64,000 nt of DNA from Halichondria panicea (lineage: Eukaryota; Porifera; Demospongiae; Suberitida; Halichondriidae). Where the stretch lies: contig NC_087379.1 of the NCBI RefSeq assembly GCF_963675165.1, positions 3,907,442 to 3,971,441 on the forward strand. Direction: 5' to 3'. This document shows positions 3,001 to 59,109 of this stretch, piece after piece; position 1 is the stretch's first letter; each line of letters starts with the position of its first letter. The translations under genes and the position numbers were made by a program. The notes beneath the pieces were generated by a model, which saw only the letters and a list, made by a program, of their open reading frames with translations, searched no databases and was not told the DNA's origin.

Positions 3001-6000
3001 ACCAAGAGTGAACGAGTGATCATTAAGTGGGTCGCTAAGATATCCTTGGTTTAGAATAACATTGAGCATAAAGCCGGAGTCTCGAATTTGTGTCTCAATA
3101 ATATTTTTGGTCAAGTCTGGTCGCAAAAGGCTACGATCTTCATCTGTTATTAGTATGAGTTGCTTTGCTGTTCCAGAACGAGTCTGAACTGAGGAAATAG
3201 CGTGCTCAATGCCAGCGTACCCATCCTCCAAAGCACCTGAAAGTTGGAGATTACTAGCAGCAGCAACAAACTCATTTGGAAGAGCTAGTGTCGATAGTGT
3301 TATACCACCAATGGCATTGAAGTCGTTTCTTCCAAATCCAACAAGAGAAAACATATTTTGTCTCACGCCTGCACCAACCCCCCTCTCTCTGAGAGCCTGG
3401 TCCAAGAGATATACCTCTTTCTGTATCCATGAATGCTCCATTACCATTGAACCAGATTCATCAACAATAAAAATTATGTCGGCTGCAGCTTCGGATGCTG
3501 GACCACTGGCAAGGAATCGTGTGGAATAGAAGTACTCTCCTTGCTCAAAAACTTCATTTATATCACCTCTACATACGTATGGTAGATCTACAGAAATGGA
3601 AGTGATGTGCTTACATGTACTTGAAGCTCCAAAAAGATACACTGTGATCAAGACTGCACTACTTTTATTTGAATACAATCATGCCAAACTCAAATGTTTC
3701 ACTATAATCATTATTACGGTAATTATACTACTATACTAAGCTTCTCACCATCAAAAACCGTTACAGTGGCAATTTCTTCAGACAGTGTTGTTCCGTACAG
3801 TCTTGACTGAAGCTCGCACCTATAATCACCAGCATCTCCACTTTGAACATTGTCAATGGTAAGTGTTCCAACTCCACCACTGGAAACAAGGTGGTACCGA
3901 GGATTAGCTCGAATAGGTTCTAGATTCCTTCGCCACGATACGAATGGAGGAGGGTAGCCTCTACTTGTACACGTAAGCGTAACGGTATCCCCTTTAGTGG
4001 CTGACTCATTTTTCGGCATATTAATCACAGTAGGAGGACCTACAAGTAGAAAAACATCACAAATTGTTGTATATGGTACCATGCCCTCTCGAAAATTCAC
4101 CCATCCTCTCAAAGTTTTTGCACAAGCGTATTTTAACTTGACAATACGCCCACCCAGAATGAAGAGTTTGAGCATGTGCAGTAGCTAAACGCCACATGTT
4201 CACTTAGTGAAGAAATAGCCTAGAATCCAGGCAAATAGGCCTGGATTCGAGGTTAGAGAAGAAAGCAAGTTTTAGGTAGTAGCTAGCTAGACTCAACTCC
4301 TTGCTGGACCAAGATCAGACATATAATTTCTCTGTGTGAATCTATTTGCCCTATATGCAGGAGAAAGGGACACAAATCTGAGAACAAAGTCATCACCCAG
4401 GCCAATTTTGCAGGTTAGCTTTCCTTGGTTTTCTGAAACAGAGTACCTGATAGCTCTAGGAGTATGACCTACAACTTTTGTCCATCCTTCGGGAAGTTCC
4501 TGCTGCTACACCTGACGAGCAACGAATAGAGTCATGCAGATCGAGTCCACTTCTTCATGTTCATTCTTTAATATCATGAATGCTTTTCATAATTATACTC
4601 ATGCTATATAACAAAGTTGTTGTCAATACAATGATTTTCATAGATGTACCAGCCTCGATTTGAGGCCGCGGGTGGGCGTATATTCGAGTGAAAACTCGCC
4701 ATGGTTCATTATCACCTATTTCCATCTTACGATGTGATTACCGAGAGGGGGCTGAATGAGGGGCCCCCAAACACTTATTGCTTAATGTTAACTGCAGGGG
4801 CTCGCGATTATAATTATGCCCAGTCTCCTAATAAGCCTAGCAGAAAACGGTGGGCGTATTTTCGTGAGGGTACGGTAGCGCAAGGGACGACATAAGAATT
4901 CCAAGTTATAAAAGTACTGTACTAGTGGTCAAAACATCTATTAATAATTATGTCCACTCAGCACTTACCACATTCACTTTCATCTTCACCATTCGTACAG
5001 TGCTGCAAACCATCACAGAGATAAGTAGAAGGCATGCACTCATCGTCACAAATGAAGTGGTTATAGCCACACGGAACAGAGTCAGTTTGTATACCTAACA
5101 GACAAGATCTACGTATAAAATTTAACACTGATAATTTACACTCACCACAGATTTCATCTTCCCCATTATTGCAGTCTTCTATACCATCACAAAGAGTGTA
5201 TAATGGCAGACACTCGTCTTCACCAGGACAACTACAATTTTGGGAGGAACCATTGCATTCAAAATCGGTAAAAAAAACATTACAACGGGAATTAATTAAA
5301 GTTGCTAGGATTTGCCAGGGAATACCAACAAAGTGATAAAAAAACGGCTGTACATTATTCCGTTACAATTAATTATTCCTCTACTTGTTAACTGATACAT
5401 GTAACTGTGTGATTGTTGAAGGTATATGAGTGTTGGGAGAAGAGGTTGGACATGCATCATCATTCATCTAATGTTCTTTGCTCACGTTACCATAGATACT
5501 GAACAATTGTAAAAAAAGAAATGGCTATACCTCTGGCTTTACTGCTGTGTCGTCTGTAGGTCAGTTAATCAGCTAGACTATAGATCGACTGGCTGGCAAG
5601 AATCTAGTAAGCTAATTATGTCACTATTAACTCGATAGAATGGAAGGGGTTGCTAAAAGACCAGGTTGCTTAGTTTAATATTCAAAAAAGTGTAAAGTAG
5701 AACCATCGGTAGAACCTCGATTATCCGGCTCAGCAAATTATATTATAACCGAGTTAAAGTTCAACTAATAATCCTTAAATGCGCATGCTCAGATGACCAC
5801 GTGCCCTCAAATTGCATTACCTGCTGTTTATATTAAAGGTGGATCTGAGGCATGGCTTATCCATTTGATTATCTGGCATATTCAGTTATTCGGCCTGCAT
5901 GCCTCTGAAACTAAAGTGTCTGGATAATCGAGATTCCATTGTAACTGGGCTAAGGGGCTGTGTAAAAAGAGAGATCACAGTATATAATTATAATTATAGT

Positions 6001-20845: not shown

Positions 20846-20854
20846 CACACGGAC

Positions 20855-20913
20855 TAGCCTCGATTCAAGGCCGATTAAAATACGTATTTTAATGCGGCCT
20901 GGAATCGAGGCTA
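20855..20913. mobile_element. 59-bp hairpin element (TAGCC family) with perfect 9-bp target duplication
   Basis: It starts TAGCCTCGATTCAAGGCCG and ends CGGCCTGGAATCGAGGCTA around a self-complementary AAAATACGTATTTT centre. CACACGGAC flanks it on both sides (20846-20854 and 20914-20922). There is no room for any coding or internal sequence. Confidence 0.85.
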
Positions 20914-20939
20914 CACACGGACCTGATGTGGGTCGGTAG

Positions 20940-21405
20940 CAGAGGAGGTTGGCCACGCGTCATCAATCATGTGACATTCCTAAGGTCTCTGCTCACGTTA
21001 CCATAGATACCGAATAACTGTAATAAAAAAGTTATGGATACTCTTGCTTTACTGACTTGTAACACCGGACTAGCTGTGTCTGTTGTCTGGCTGGACCAAG
21101 ATTAGCTAGACTATAGGGTAGAGTATAGTTTAGCAGTGCTGTATGAAGCTTGCATTGTACTGGCTGTCAAGAATCTAGTAAACACTGTATGCACTGATAA
21201 CTCGCCAGAATAAAGGGGATCGGTGGGGATCGGGTTGGTTAATGAAAGTTTTATATCAAAAGAAGCCAGCGAGGCACATAAAGTTTGCCTTCAGTCTCTA
21301 ATGACCGTGCAACACCAGCTAAAAGTTTACATAGAACTCATTTGTCAATTTTTGTGCCAGCTCAGCAAAAAAAGTGGTGCACGTGATCGTGTCCAACCTC
21401 CTCTG
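20940..21405. mobile_element. 466-bp inverted-repeat element with 9-bp target duplication
   Basis: Ends CAGAGGAGGTTGGCCACG and CGTGTCCAACCTCCTCTG. The flanks carry GGTCGGTAG at 20931-20939 and again at 21406-21414. A 9-bp duplication suits Mutator-type transposition. No transposase ORF is present, so it is non-autonomous. Confidence 0.75.
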
Positions 21406-33395: not shown

Positions 33396-39348
<5,953 letters not shown>

Positions 39349-40044: not shown

Positions 40045-40455
40045 CATGAATAATTCATGAGAATTGTTTTTGCCGTCTGTAAAAAAAGTCTACAAGCAGT
40101 TCTACTGCTAAACATCAACTTCACCTCATTTGTGAGAAAAAAAGTGAATTTTTTCCAACAGTGGTAAAAAACACTGTCTATTAATTCATTCCTTACTTTT
40201 ACTGCATCTTCATCACCAGCTAGTAAGTATCACCTCCTACTTGCTATGACTTTGATATGGCTACTGTGTCGACTAAGCAGAGTTTCACTAAGAAGTTTAC
40301 TGTTCCACTTTCTTTGTTTATTAATAATATTGGCAGTACGCATGGTTCAGCCATAGATTGAAGAGTCTAACTCTTCAATCTATGGTTCAGCGGAAGTGAC
40401 GTTTTCACTAGCAGTCATGTAAGCGTTCCAATCCCTCTTTCTTTACTATCTATGG
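40045..40455 (-). mobile_element. Family-A remnant (one terminus lost)
   Basis: ATGAATAATTCATGAGAATT and CAAGCAGTTCTACTGCTAAA match family-A interior; the right end CAATCCCTC..TACTATCTATG is intact and stops at the family-C junction GATCAAT. The left terminal repeat is absent. Confidence 0.65.
40352..40384. mobile_element. 33-bp hairpin with family-A ends and 7-bp target duplication
   Basis: CATAGATTGAAGAGT, then CTA, then ACTCTTCAATCTATG: two perfect 15-bp inverted arms with a 3-bp loop. GTTCAGC flanks it at 40345-40351 and 40385-40391. Its ends equal those of the ~520-bp family-A elements, so it looks like an extreme deletion derivative that still moved. Confidence 0.85.
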
Positions 40456-40659: not shown

Positions 40660-40868
40660 GACCAGCCGTTCGTTATCTGAAAGAACGCCTGGTCTAGTTC
40701 CAATGTACAACTCGTCTAGCTGAGTCAGCGTTTTACAGCATCATAATGATATCCATGGCTAATACACCTTGTGCGGCCATTTATCGATCCAAGAAATTCC
40801 TAGACCAATTAGACAAGTTGTACATTGGAACTTGACCAGACGTTCTTTCAGACAACGAACGGCTGGTC
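40660..40868. mobile_element. 209-bp inverted-repeat element
   Basis: Arms of about 55 bp: GACCAGCCGTTCGTTATCTG... on the left and ...CAGACAACGAACGGCTGGTC on the right, with TTCCAATGTACAACT inside each arm. It is non-coding and is inserted in the family-C repeat. Confidence 0.75.
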
Positions 40869-40959
40869 TCGAGAGGCTACCATTCATTTAGACGGGGATT
40901 TTTGACATTGATTGTTTTTAACAACAATCATTACCCATTCTTTGAATTTCTCTGCCTGC

Positions 40960-41010
40960 TAGCCTCGATTCCAGGCCGCACTCCTTGTTGAGGCCTTGTG
41001 AAGGAGGCTA
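40960..41010. mobile_element. 51-bp hairpin element (TAGCC family), perfect 9-bp target duplication
   Basis: Starts TAGCCTCGATTCCAGGCCG and ends GGCCTTGTGAAGGAGGCTA. TCTGCCTGC flanks it exactly on both sides (40951-40959 and 41011-41019). The uninterrupted family-C copies read through at this position. Confidence 0.85.
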
Positions 41011-41321
41011 TCTGCCTGCATGTAGCAAAATTTATAAAAATATTCAAAACTATTGCTATCATAGCTAGTAGCTTTATGTTATGTAGCTTCGACACCTCCA
41101 CCGAGGCATCAGCACCCGCGGTGCTTTCATTTTTTTTGTAATTGTTGTTGATCTCTTTATCGGACAATCGTGCTAGATACAAAATATTTAACTTGGTGTA
41201 TAGAGTCAGCAATCAATATTTGGGCCCATCAATTATTGGATGAAATTGCATGCAAGCAGAAGTGGTCCTCTCACAGACAATGGCCAAGGGCTAAGTACAA
41301 CTTCCTAAGTGCAAGTCTTAC

Positions 41322-41696: not shown

Positions 41697-42007
41697 TAGT
41701 TGGGCGTGGCCTCGACCGTCTCCTGACGGGAGGTCGGGTTGCAAGCCTATCTGGGATTTGTTCTGCAGCATTATGTAACACTGCCATGAATATTCTTCTT
41801 CTCAAGTGGGTGTTAACTGACATGATGACGTGATAAACCACAGCATAATGCATGCTGTTTTGCAACTAGATGCAAACGGAAGTGTAACCAAGCACGTGAA
41901 AAATACTGCAATCTGATAGGGCGCCACTATAGTGGCGCTAGAACAAATCCCAGATAGGCTTGCAACCCAACCTCCCGTCAGGGAGACGGTCGGGCCATGC
42001 CCAACTA
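41697..42007. mobile_element. 311-bp MULE-like MITE, ~68-bp terminal repeats, 9-bp target duplication
   Basis: Left arm TAGTTGGGCGTGGCCTCGAC ... TATCTGGGATTTGTTC; right arm is the inverse, ending GGGCCATGCCCAACTA. CTGCTTAGC flanks both sides (41688-41696 and 42008-42016). Long terminal repeats plus a 9-bp duplication point to Mutator-like transposition. It has no ORF. Confidence 0.85.
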
Positions 42008-54592: not shown

Positions 54593-55019
54593 TCTCATGA
54601 ATCAGCCGCCCTTCTTTTGGGAAGACCGTCTGAGCATTCTTGTGTTAAAGTTTTATATGCCAAGACAATATTCTATCTTGACCAATCAGATTGAATAAAT
54701 CCAGTCAGGTGATTAAATTGGTCATACGCATGGTAAAACGCTTACTACAGTCATAGAAGCTAGCGCTTAGGCATAGAATTAGCACCACATGCATGCAAAA
54801 CACAAACTAGCCTCGACTCCAGCCCCTTCAATAGTGCGGCCTGGAACACAAACCAGATTGTTGAATTCATTAAAGAGAGGATGCCATGGGCGCGTAAGGT
54901 CACGAATTTGGCCATTGGTTTTGTGAGCAATCAACATTCCATTGTGAAATGACCTCAAGACAAGAGTGCATGTTCATACCGTCTTCCCAAAAGAAGGCCT
55001 GGGCGGCTGATTCATGAGA
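54593..55019. mobile_element. 427-bp inverted-repeat element
   Basis: TCTCATGAATCAGCCGCCC and TTCTTTTGGGAAGAC on the left match GTCTTCCCAAAAGAA and GGGCGGCTGATTCATGAGA on the right. A TAGCC hairpin (54808-54844) is nested inside. No target duplication was found. Confidence 0.7.
54808..54844. mobile_element. 37-bp TAGCC-family element lacking its outer right arm, 9-bp target duplication
   Basis: It starts TAGCCTCGACTCCAGCCCC and ends GTGCGGCCTGG, missing the last ~12 bases of the right arm. AACACAAAC flanks it on both sides (54799-54807 and 54845-54853). Confidence 0.65.
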
Positions 55020-58335: not shown

Positions 58336-58692
58336 TAAGTAAATACACTGTCAAAACATCGATGAAGGCTTACTTCGAGACAAAAACGTATATCCAACAG
58401 GCTTATAAGGAAAGAAGAATCGAGCAATGATCAAAACTTATAAGAAAGTAGTAACTATAGTAACAATTAACCCAACACCAGACACAAGCATCACATTCTA
58501 GCTTAAAAAGAAGAAACTTGACAGGTCCAGCATATAACCCCTCCCCTGAGAATAAAAACTAACACAAAACAAGAATTACACAATTATAGCTCACACTCAA
58601 TAATCACCTAGCTTGCCCCTATAGCTTTCCCAGCCCGATTTTTCTCTAATAATAGGCAACGATTATGTAGCTACGGGTAGTCTATTACAACC

Positions 58693-58750
58693 TAGCCTCG
58701 AATCCAGGCCGATTAAAATACGTATTTTAATCGGCCTGGTCTCGAAGCTA
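58693..58750. mobile_element. 58-bp hairpin element (TAGCC family), 9-bp target duplication
   Basis: Starts TAGCCTCGAATCCAGGCCG and ends CGGCCTGGTCTCGAAGCTA, with the self-complementary centre AAAATACGTATTTT. Flanks ATTACAACC (58684-58692) and ATTGCAACC (58751-58759) differ at one base. Nearly identical to 20855-20913. Confidence 0.8.
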
Positions 58751-59109
58751 ATTGCAACCCTACACTATGAAAATAGAATGCCCACATACATCAAAGGTAT
58801 TTTATTCGTGGATGGTGTGCATAGCTCATGCTATTGAAAATGGGACTTTCTGTTAACATGCTCCACACATCTGCTGATGTTTGTGATTGGGGTTTGTTTT
58901 GTTTTGGTAAGTAACCTTTAAATCATAAGAATGCAGTATGTGAAGTTTTCATGTTCACGTTAGGTTTCAGTTACAGGAACCTACTGTATGCTAGATTGAC
59001 ATAAGGTCATCAACAAAGTTCAACTGGAACAGACTACAACTAAAATCGTGTCTTGGTGGCTGGCGCAGATAAAGCCTGGAGTATAATAATACACGGCATT
59101 GTATTCAAA

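Follow-up and report, generated by a model that had tools for sequence, protein, structure and literature searches.

Ultra-short hairpin elements with 9-bp target duplications in the genome of the sponge Halichondria panicea and their probable origin from an AcademH-like transposon system

The window analysed here, a stretch of 64,000 nucleotides of the Halichondria panicea genome (contig NC_087379.1, positions 3,907,442 to 3,971,441 of the forward strand), contains open reading frames of which two match von Willebrand A (VWA) models and one a protein kinase model, the kinase match and one of the VWA matches scoring below Pfam's cut-offs. It also carries five ultra-short hairpin elements of, in order of position, 40, 59, 51, 37 and 58 bp, each with 9-bp flanking repeats, all of which had been proposed in a preliminary description of this DNA and were found in place on direct reading of the window. 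These elements, their flanking duplications and one longer relative are as follows:

4207..4215, + strand: left target duplication GTGAAGAAA (from the sequence)
4216..4255, + strand: ultra-short hairpin element of 40 bp, each 9-bp end with a single mismatch (from the sequence; paralogous empty site L055)
4256..4264, + strand: right target duplication GAGAAGAAA, 8/9 against the left copy (from the sequence)
20846..20854, + strand: left target duplication CACACGGAC (from the sequence)
20855..20913, + strand: ultra-short hairpin element of 59 bp with intact 9-bp ends on both sides (from the sequence and a scan for target duplications and terminal inverted repeats)
20914..20922, + strand: right target duplication CACACGGAC, 9/9 (from the sequence)
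40660..40879, + strand: longer relative (~228-bp family), left end lost, no duplication seen (from sequence comparison)
40951..40959, + strand: left target duplication TCTGCCTGC (from the sequence)
40960..41010, + strand: ultra-short element, 51 bp, with a decayed right end, inside another interspersed repeat (from the sequence)
41011..41019, + strand: right target duplication TCTGCCTGC, 9/9 (from the sequence)
54799..54807, + strand: left target duplication AACACAAAC (from the sequence)
54808..54844, + strand: ultra-short element, 37 bp, right end without its outermost ~11 bp (from the sequence)
54845..54853, + strand: right target duplication AACACAAAC, 9/9 (from the sequence)
58684..58692, + strand: left target duplication ATTACAACC (from the sequence)
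58693..58750, + strand: palindromic ultra-short element of 58 bp whose arms are of two types (left ATCC, right GACC-type) (from the sequence)
58751..58759, + strand: right target duplication ATTGCAACC, 8/9 against the left copy (from the sequence)

Shared inverted ends had been attributed to all five copies; the elements at 40960-41010 and 54808-54844 are less regular than claimed. The right end of the former is decayed and reads AGGAGGCTA, and the latter lacks TCGAGGCTA, yet adjoins an exact 9-bp repeat. Among the five window copies, both 9-bp ends are intact only in the element at 20855-20913, which was also one of three matches at a duplication length of 9 in the de novo scan of the window; units near-identical to it are present at many sites of the genome. 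The longer relative at 40660..40879 has a right end of the same kind (TCGAGAGGCTA) and a subterminal stem, GACCAGCCGTTCG, in common with the hairpins. At 54808-54844 and at locus L060, about 11 of the outermost bases of one end are missing and the duplication still abuts the shortened element (an exact 9-mer in the window; 8 bp, GTAGTCAC, at L060), as if the end had been cut back as far as the stem-loop by an incomplete excision.

Other small elements were noted in the same stretch. Two elements with unrelated ends, of 466 bp (20940-21405) and 311 bp (41697-42007), are flanked by the 9-bp duplications CAGAGGAGGTTGG and TAGTTGGGCG, respectively. Besides, a 33-bp perfect hairpin at 40352-40384 (CATAGATTGAAGAG...CTCTTCAATCTATG), with the 7-bp duplication GTTCAGC, corresponds in miniature to the 514-529-bp elements at 38250, 25557 and 45715. 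This hairpin has 18 exact copies genome-wide, 17 of them 31-35 bp and one 56 bp long, against none in the control, so that ultra-short stubs seem to arise from a second group of transposons in this genome as well. The centre of the 56-bp copy (G000:C9:1367844-1367899) contains telomere-type repeats, (TTAGGG)n.

The preliminary description had proposed a genome-wide search for inverted pairs of the ends, and in 131.5 Mb (39 contigs) hundreds of copies were obtained. Exact pairs TAGCCTCGA...TCGAGGCTA occur 945 times at a length of 30-60 bp, 11 times at 18-29 bp and 208 times at 61-91 bp, with zero matches to the reversed-pattern control in each class, these counts including segmentally duplicated copies and some of the 208 rows spanning two neighbouring elements. 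The arms among the 50 matches listed are of the types TTCCAGGCC, TTCAAGGCC, ATCCAGGCC, GACCAGGCC, GACCAGCCG and ATCCACGCC, and in these matches the left and right arms are often of unlike type.

If the hairpins had been transposed, consistent 9-bp duplications were expected throughout the genome, and this expectation was borne out. After copies with shared flanks had been merged, an exact 9-bp duplication was present in 39 of 65 short copies and a duplication with at most one mismatch in 50 of 65, compared with 15 of 12,796 at the latter threshold in a null made by shuffling left and right flanks; the same 65 copies include one exact 8-bp repeat and no exact repeat longer than 9 bp. The sample comprised 31 of the 40 best-scoring similar places (including the window's own) and part of the 50 listed exact pairs, with tandem neighbours each counted once, and since it leans to intact, near-identical copies, older copies are expected to do worse. 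Inclusion required at most one mismatch per 9-bp end and 40 flanking bases to either side, and because of these limits the window copies at 40960 and 54808 stand outside the counts.

Only some of the copies are explained by segmental duplication. Merging reduced 76 short elements with flanks to 65, the 11 dropped being seven elsewhere with shared flanks and four (L001, L003 and two in L006) that duplicate or overlap the L083 and L084 places, while at least two related pairs (L034/L035 and L083:2029/L084:5763) are still inside the 65. Segmental duplication as the whole explanation was excluded by the exact 9-bp repeats at unrelated flanks. The 15 copies without a clean 9-mer include an irregular window match at 38652, a 44-bp element (L050) and a 19-bp element (L044). 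Inspection by eye showed, at L042 and L067, an exact 9-mer that an additional TA at one end has shifted out of place, and, at L025, L037 and L040, a similar shifted repeat with one mismatch; the surplus TA or TAG between end and duplication at these loci perhaps reflects slippage at the cut. Stubs of 23, 27 and 28 bp, the shortest, are rare; two 28-bp copies (L030, L064) lie in one shared repeated segment with an 8-bp repeat, and two 23-bp copies stand in tandem (L045).

An empty-site comparison, also proposed beforehand, was made with paralogs in the same genome, and the element-free sites show the target once. The target GGTCAAGTT of L077 is single in the ~228-bp family (e.g., L058, L059, L061, and L062), and that of an element of L083, GCAACTTCC, is single in L001, L003, and L084. 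Locus L055 provides the comparison both for the window element at 4216, with a single target (TAATGAAGAAA followed by GG), and for the two elements of L008, where one site is a single GCTACTACC and the other is slightly altered. At window position 40960 the element is absent from paralogs of the host repeat, but these have small indels at the site, and the duplication is not cleanly shown.

Elements standing next to each other were also found. The pattern TCGAGGCTA-N(0-20)-TAGCCTCGA occurs 79 times in the genome (control 0), and among the 50 of these places listed there are 39 distinct spacers, 14 of them 9 nt and six 4 nt long; were all 21 spacings equal, 14 of 39 at 9 nt would have a probability of about 1.5e-9. 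At L045, L083, and L105 the same 9-mer flanks the group on either side and also separates its elements; it is present twice at L028 and L106, and once, between the two ends, at L107 and L108. Moreover, L083 differs from its paralogs L001, L003, and L084, which contain a single element, by a second element plus one 9-mer, and this together with the 9-nt spacers indicates that a new element can insert exactly into the duplication of a resident one. The double P elements of Drosophila offer a parallel for this tandem re-use. At L045:118-221 (G000:C8:5737067-5737170), elements of 40, 23 and 23 bp are separated and flanked by four copies of the 9-mer GTAGTACGG.

The same ends border a number of longer elements. 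In the ~228-bp family, exact 9-bp duplications were found at L058 (AGATCTGGC), at L061 (AAGAAAGAA) and, with a shortened right end, at L062 (ACCAGGCCT); the duplication is not clean at L059, and L057 and L060 each lack one end. Elements of 516 bp (L086, duplication AGTAAATGG) and 1,065 bp (L083, duplication ACTCAGTTC) follow, with further 1,065-bp copies at L093 (GATTTATGA) and L096 (GTACAATCA), and a similarity search with the 1,065-bp element gave 96-100% identity over up to 361 bases at the 40 places scored. A 1,089-bp element at L093 shares these ends but lacks a clean duplication, its repeat being 8 bp long and shifted by 3.

Through the beginning of a RecQ-like gene that is part of the 1,065-bp family, a 5,643-bp element was found (L095:577-6219), with the same 9-bp ends and the exact 9-bp duplication GTGTTTACC on both sides. 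Its open frames match DUF6589 in two frames (E 2.7e-31 and 1.9e-15) and zf-AD below the cut-off of that model, and the opposite strand encodes, convergently to DUF6589, a helicase with DEAD, Helicase_C and RecQ_Zn_bind domains whose best PDB matches are WRN and RecQ; a PDB search with the longer DUF6589 frame gave no match. An internally deleted copy of 3,145 bp is flanked by the duplication GTATGTGTG (L094), and L102, with frames of the same kinds, has a single end, the second not being found within the stretch read. Genome-wide there are 92 matches to DUF6589; of the 41 RecQ rows outside the 1,065-bp family, 18 have one of these matches no more than 3.5 kb away. Judging from these sequences, the partner of the hairpins is most likely an AcademH-like candidate element with DUF6589 and a RecQ helicase, and not a Mutator element. 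At L103:3799-5066, open frames of DUF3504 or phage-integrase-like type, which we take to be a Crypton-like tyrosine recombinase, adjoin a copy of the DUF6589/RecQ type.

It had been stated that the hairpins have almost nothing inside; what they do contain is mostly the stem-loop that lies subterminally in the ends of the parent. Longer elements have such a stem-loop 0-4 bases inward of the 9-bp terminus, its inner arm mostly resembling GCCTGG, and most of the ends tested read TAGCCTCGA and then, within a few bases, a CCAGGCC...GGCCTGG-type stem-loop. When 12 ends of six elements from five families were compared with shuffled sequences, at most 15 of 500 shuffles reached the observed stem at eight ends and 40, 105, 119 and 260 of 500 at the other four, which are thus weak, the shuffles keeping base composition only and the two ends of the 1,089-bp element being identical and hence not independent. 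The common ultra-short forms consist of the outer parts of both ends joined, with one stem-loop between two termini of 9-11 bp. A 55-bp stub at L084 is exactly the outer ends of L095 joined at a 2-bp overlap, with no clean duplication in this copy. Two 23-bp elements and one 27-bp element have clean duplications and no stem-loop, and may represent later deletions.

These features suggest that the hairpins probably derive, by extreme internal deletion, from an AcademH-like DNA transposon system and would be moved in trans. The end signal would consist of the 9-bp terminus and the stem-loop, and a deletion would fuse the left half of the stem-loop at one end with the right half of that at the other or, alternatively, would take place between repeated GGCCTGG arms. 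Because the stem-loop reads nearly alike from either side, such a deletion would leave one stem-loop completing both ends, so that a single stem-loop may plausibly serve both ends of the ultra-short unit. The stub would still be recognised, cut out and inserted via a 9-bp staggered cut, with the DUF6589 protein as the putative transposase and the RecQ helicase possibly helping to open or fold the ends. More tentatively, the hairpin could be a minimal transposon with a two-faced end, complete with a single stem-loop and two 9-bp termini, and perhaps moved through a folded intermediate (a cruciform or a single-strand hairpin) opened by the RecQ helicase, which, if true, would explain how ends are paired in units too short to loop as double-stranded DNA.

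It is quite conceivable, though short of probable, that for the transposase the outermost ~18-20 bp of each end are enough and that the hairpin is an accident of inverted repeats meeting, and the stem-loop may be a by-product. In agreement with this explanation, 47 of the 50 clean copies are at least 36 bp long, i.e., at least 2 x 18, and the 55-bp classes (L031, L036) pair only 9 and 8 of 18 inner positions. However, long elements have a stem-loop inside a single end (the eight of 12 ends mentioned above), which the symmetry of the two ends cannot explain.

Sequence identity among the copies bears on whether the short unit moves by itself. An identical 58-bp sequence occupies 20 of the 65 sites (shared flanks merged) and has clean duplications at 17 of them; one 59-bp sequence occupies five of the 65 sites and a second 58-bp sequence three, all clean. 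In addition, a 47-bp class with one core (CCGTATTTTAATCGG) and unlike arms occurs at four sites (L032, L040, L070, and L071), with exact duplications at L032, L070, and L071, and a reverse-type variant of it at L027. Since the identical 58-bp sequence is present at 20 sites, 17 of them clean, the tiny unit itself most likely moves. No parent element with exactly the GATTAAAATAC arm that the 58-bp class carries was found. An unlikely alternative is that elements of full or medium size were inserted and then collapsed in place, in the manner of a solo LTR, the stub never having moved alone. The resulting duplications would look identical, the stem-loops turn the two ends into local direct repeats, the shortest stubs are rare (the 11 exact pairs of 18-29 bp), and a 72-bp stub at L104, without a duplication, consists of an entire end of the 1,089-bp type, stem-loop included, and the last 11 bp of the other, all of which would fit such a collapse. 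Nevertheless, the 58-bp identity at 20 sites requires either multiplication of the short unit or repeated collapse at the same base, and the 47-bp core at its four sites and the L027 variant demand likewise. We regard the hairpins, which at about 36-59 bp are as extraordinarily small as had been claimed, as a real, abundant and apparently recent population of ultra-short transposed units.

The suggestion of a Mutator-type transposase acting in trans stands in part, as the units are non-autonomous, have 9-bp duplications and are presumably mobilised in trans, but the Mutator type itself was not upheld. A Mutator-like element (MULE) transposase moving the hairpins has in its favour that 9-bp duplications are typical of MULEs and that the genome contains MULE transposases, with 31 PF10551 matches, some in long open frames. 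The reading covered 22 of these 31 matches, and ends on both sides together with a matching duplication were present at none of the 22 loci (1.5 to ~4 kb read on each side), nor was the autonomous MULE with the same ends, which had been envisaged, found among them. One exact end lies 1.6 kb downstream of the MULE at L049, and in ~8.4 kb upstream of it (L063) there are only look-alikes with one mismatch, without its duplication; the MULE at L052 has a left match with one mismatch and an exact right match, flanked by 9-mers that differ. Several MULE copies do no more than harbour nested hairpins, and where a MULE family (L047/L053) was compared for its boundaries the flank was repeat-rich. The candidate with both ends and the duplication was found elsewhere, at L095, and we consider a MULE source improbable. 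Replication slippage, assembly artefact or segmental duplication in place of transposition has practically no chance of being correct, since, even though some copies share flanks, exact 9-bp duplications at unrelated flanks (against 15 of 12,796 in the null) and precise empty sites refute it for most copies read.

The internal-deletion reading suggests a natural way in which a full transposon could become a tiny mobile stub, by collapse of the ends onto a shared hairpin. A length of 36-59 bp is far below that at which double-stranded DNA bends easily, and these units therefore provide a test of how nearly touching ends are paired. Moreover, the system combines a candidate coding partner and empty sites with hundreds of natural end pairs that differ stepwise in length, so that direct measurement could show how little of an end suffices as a signal and what the RecQ helicase contributes. 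Repeat annotation with length cut-offs will miss this ultra-short class.

Among known systems, miniature inverted-repeat transposable elements (MITEs), which include Stowaway, Tourist, hAT and Mutator MITEs, span roughly 50-800 bp. The hairpins resemble them in being non-autonomous and non-coding, in having terminal inverted repeats, a constant target duplication and a high copy number, and in sharing their ends with a coding element (L095), but differ in that practically nothing lies between the ends and that they are at or below the low edge of this size range, with the 58-59-bp class at the edge and those of 36-47 bp below it. The hairpins and MULEs have the 9-bp duplication in common, whereas these ends with that duplication occur in a helicase-bearing element and in no MULE read. 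Bacterial REP palindromes are moved by a REP-associated transposase through single-strand chemistry that is not known to leave a target duplication; they, too, are hairpin-sized non-autonomous units moved in trans, and the 9-bp duplication sets the sponge hairpins apart. In titles and opening parts of abstracts, a body of sources that leaves subscription literature and Repbase reports mostly uncovered, no report of transposed units of this size in animal nuclear genomes was found, and DUF6589 is named in no paper of the literature searched. According to the available part of one report, repetitive hairpin-forming elements occur in sponge mitochondria, with the mechanism left open there (PMC2800124); these elements and the yeast GC clusters are of similar size and shape and also stand in tandem, but they are mitochondrial. 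The closing comparison is with AcademH, a lineage of Academ DNA transposons (Kojima, 2020, Mob DNA 11:15, as cited in PMC10045372 and PMC10799480). Derivatives of 36-59 bp, stem-loops at the ends and tandem re-use of duplications go unmentioned in the available portions of these AcademH descriptions. The likeness lies in two features by which, in the accessible text of PMC10045372, AcademH is described: duplications of 9 or 10 bp, as opposed to the 3 or 4 bp of AcademX, a difference that the paper connects with the helicase and nuclease of these lineages, and an encoded helicase. On the sponge side, GTGTTTACC flanks L095 and 39 of 65 short copies have exact 9-bp duplications, and L095 encodes the DEAD/Helicase_C/RecQ_Zn_bind helicase that matches WRN and RecQ in the PDB.
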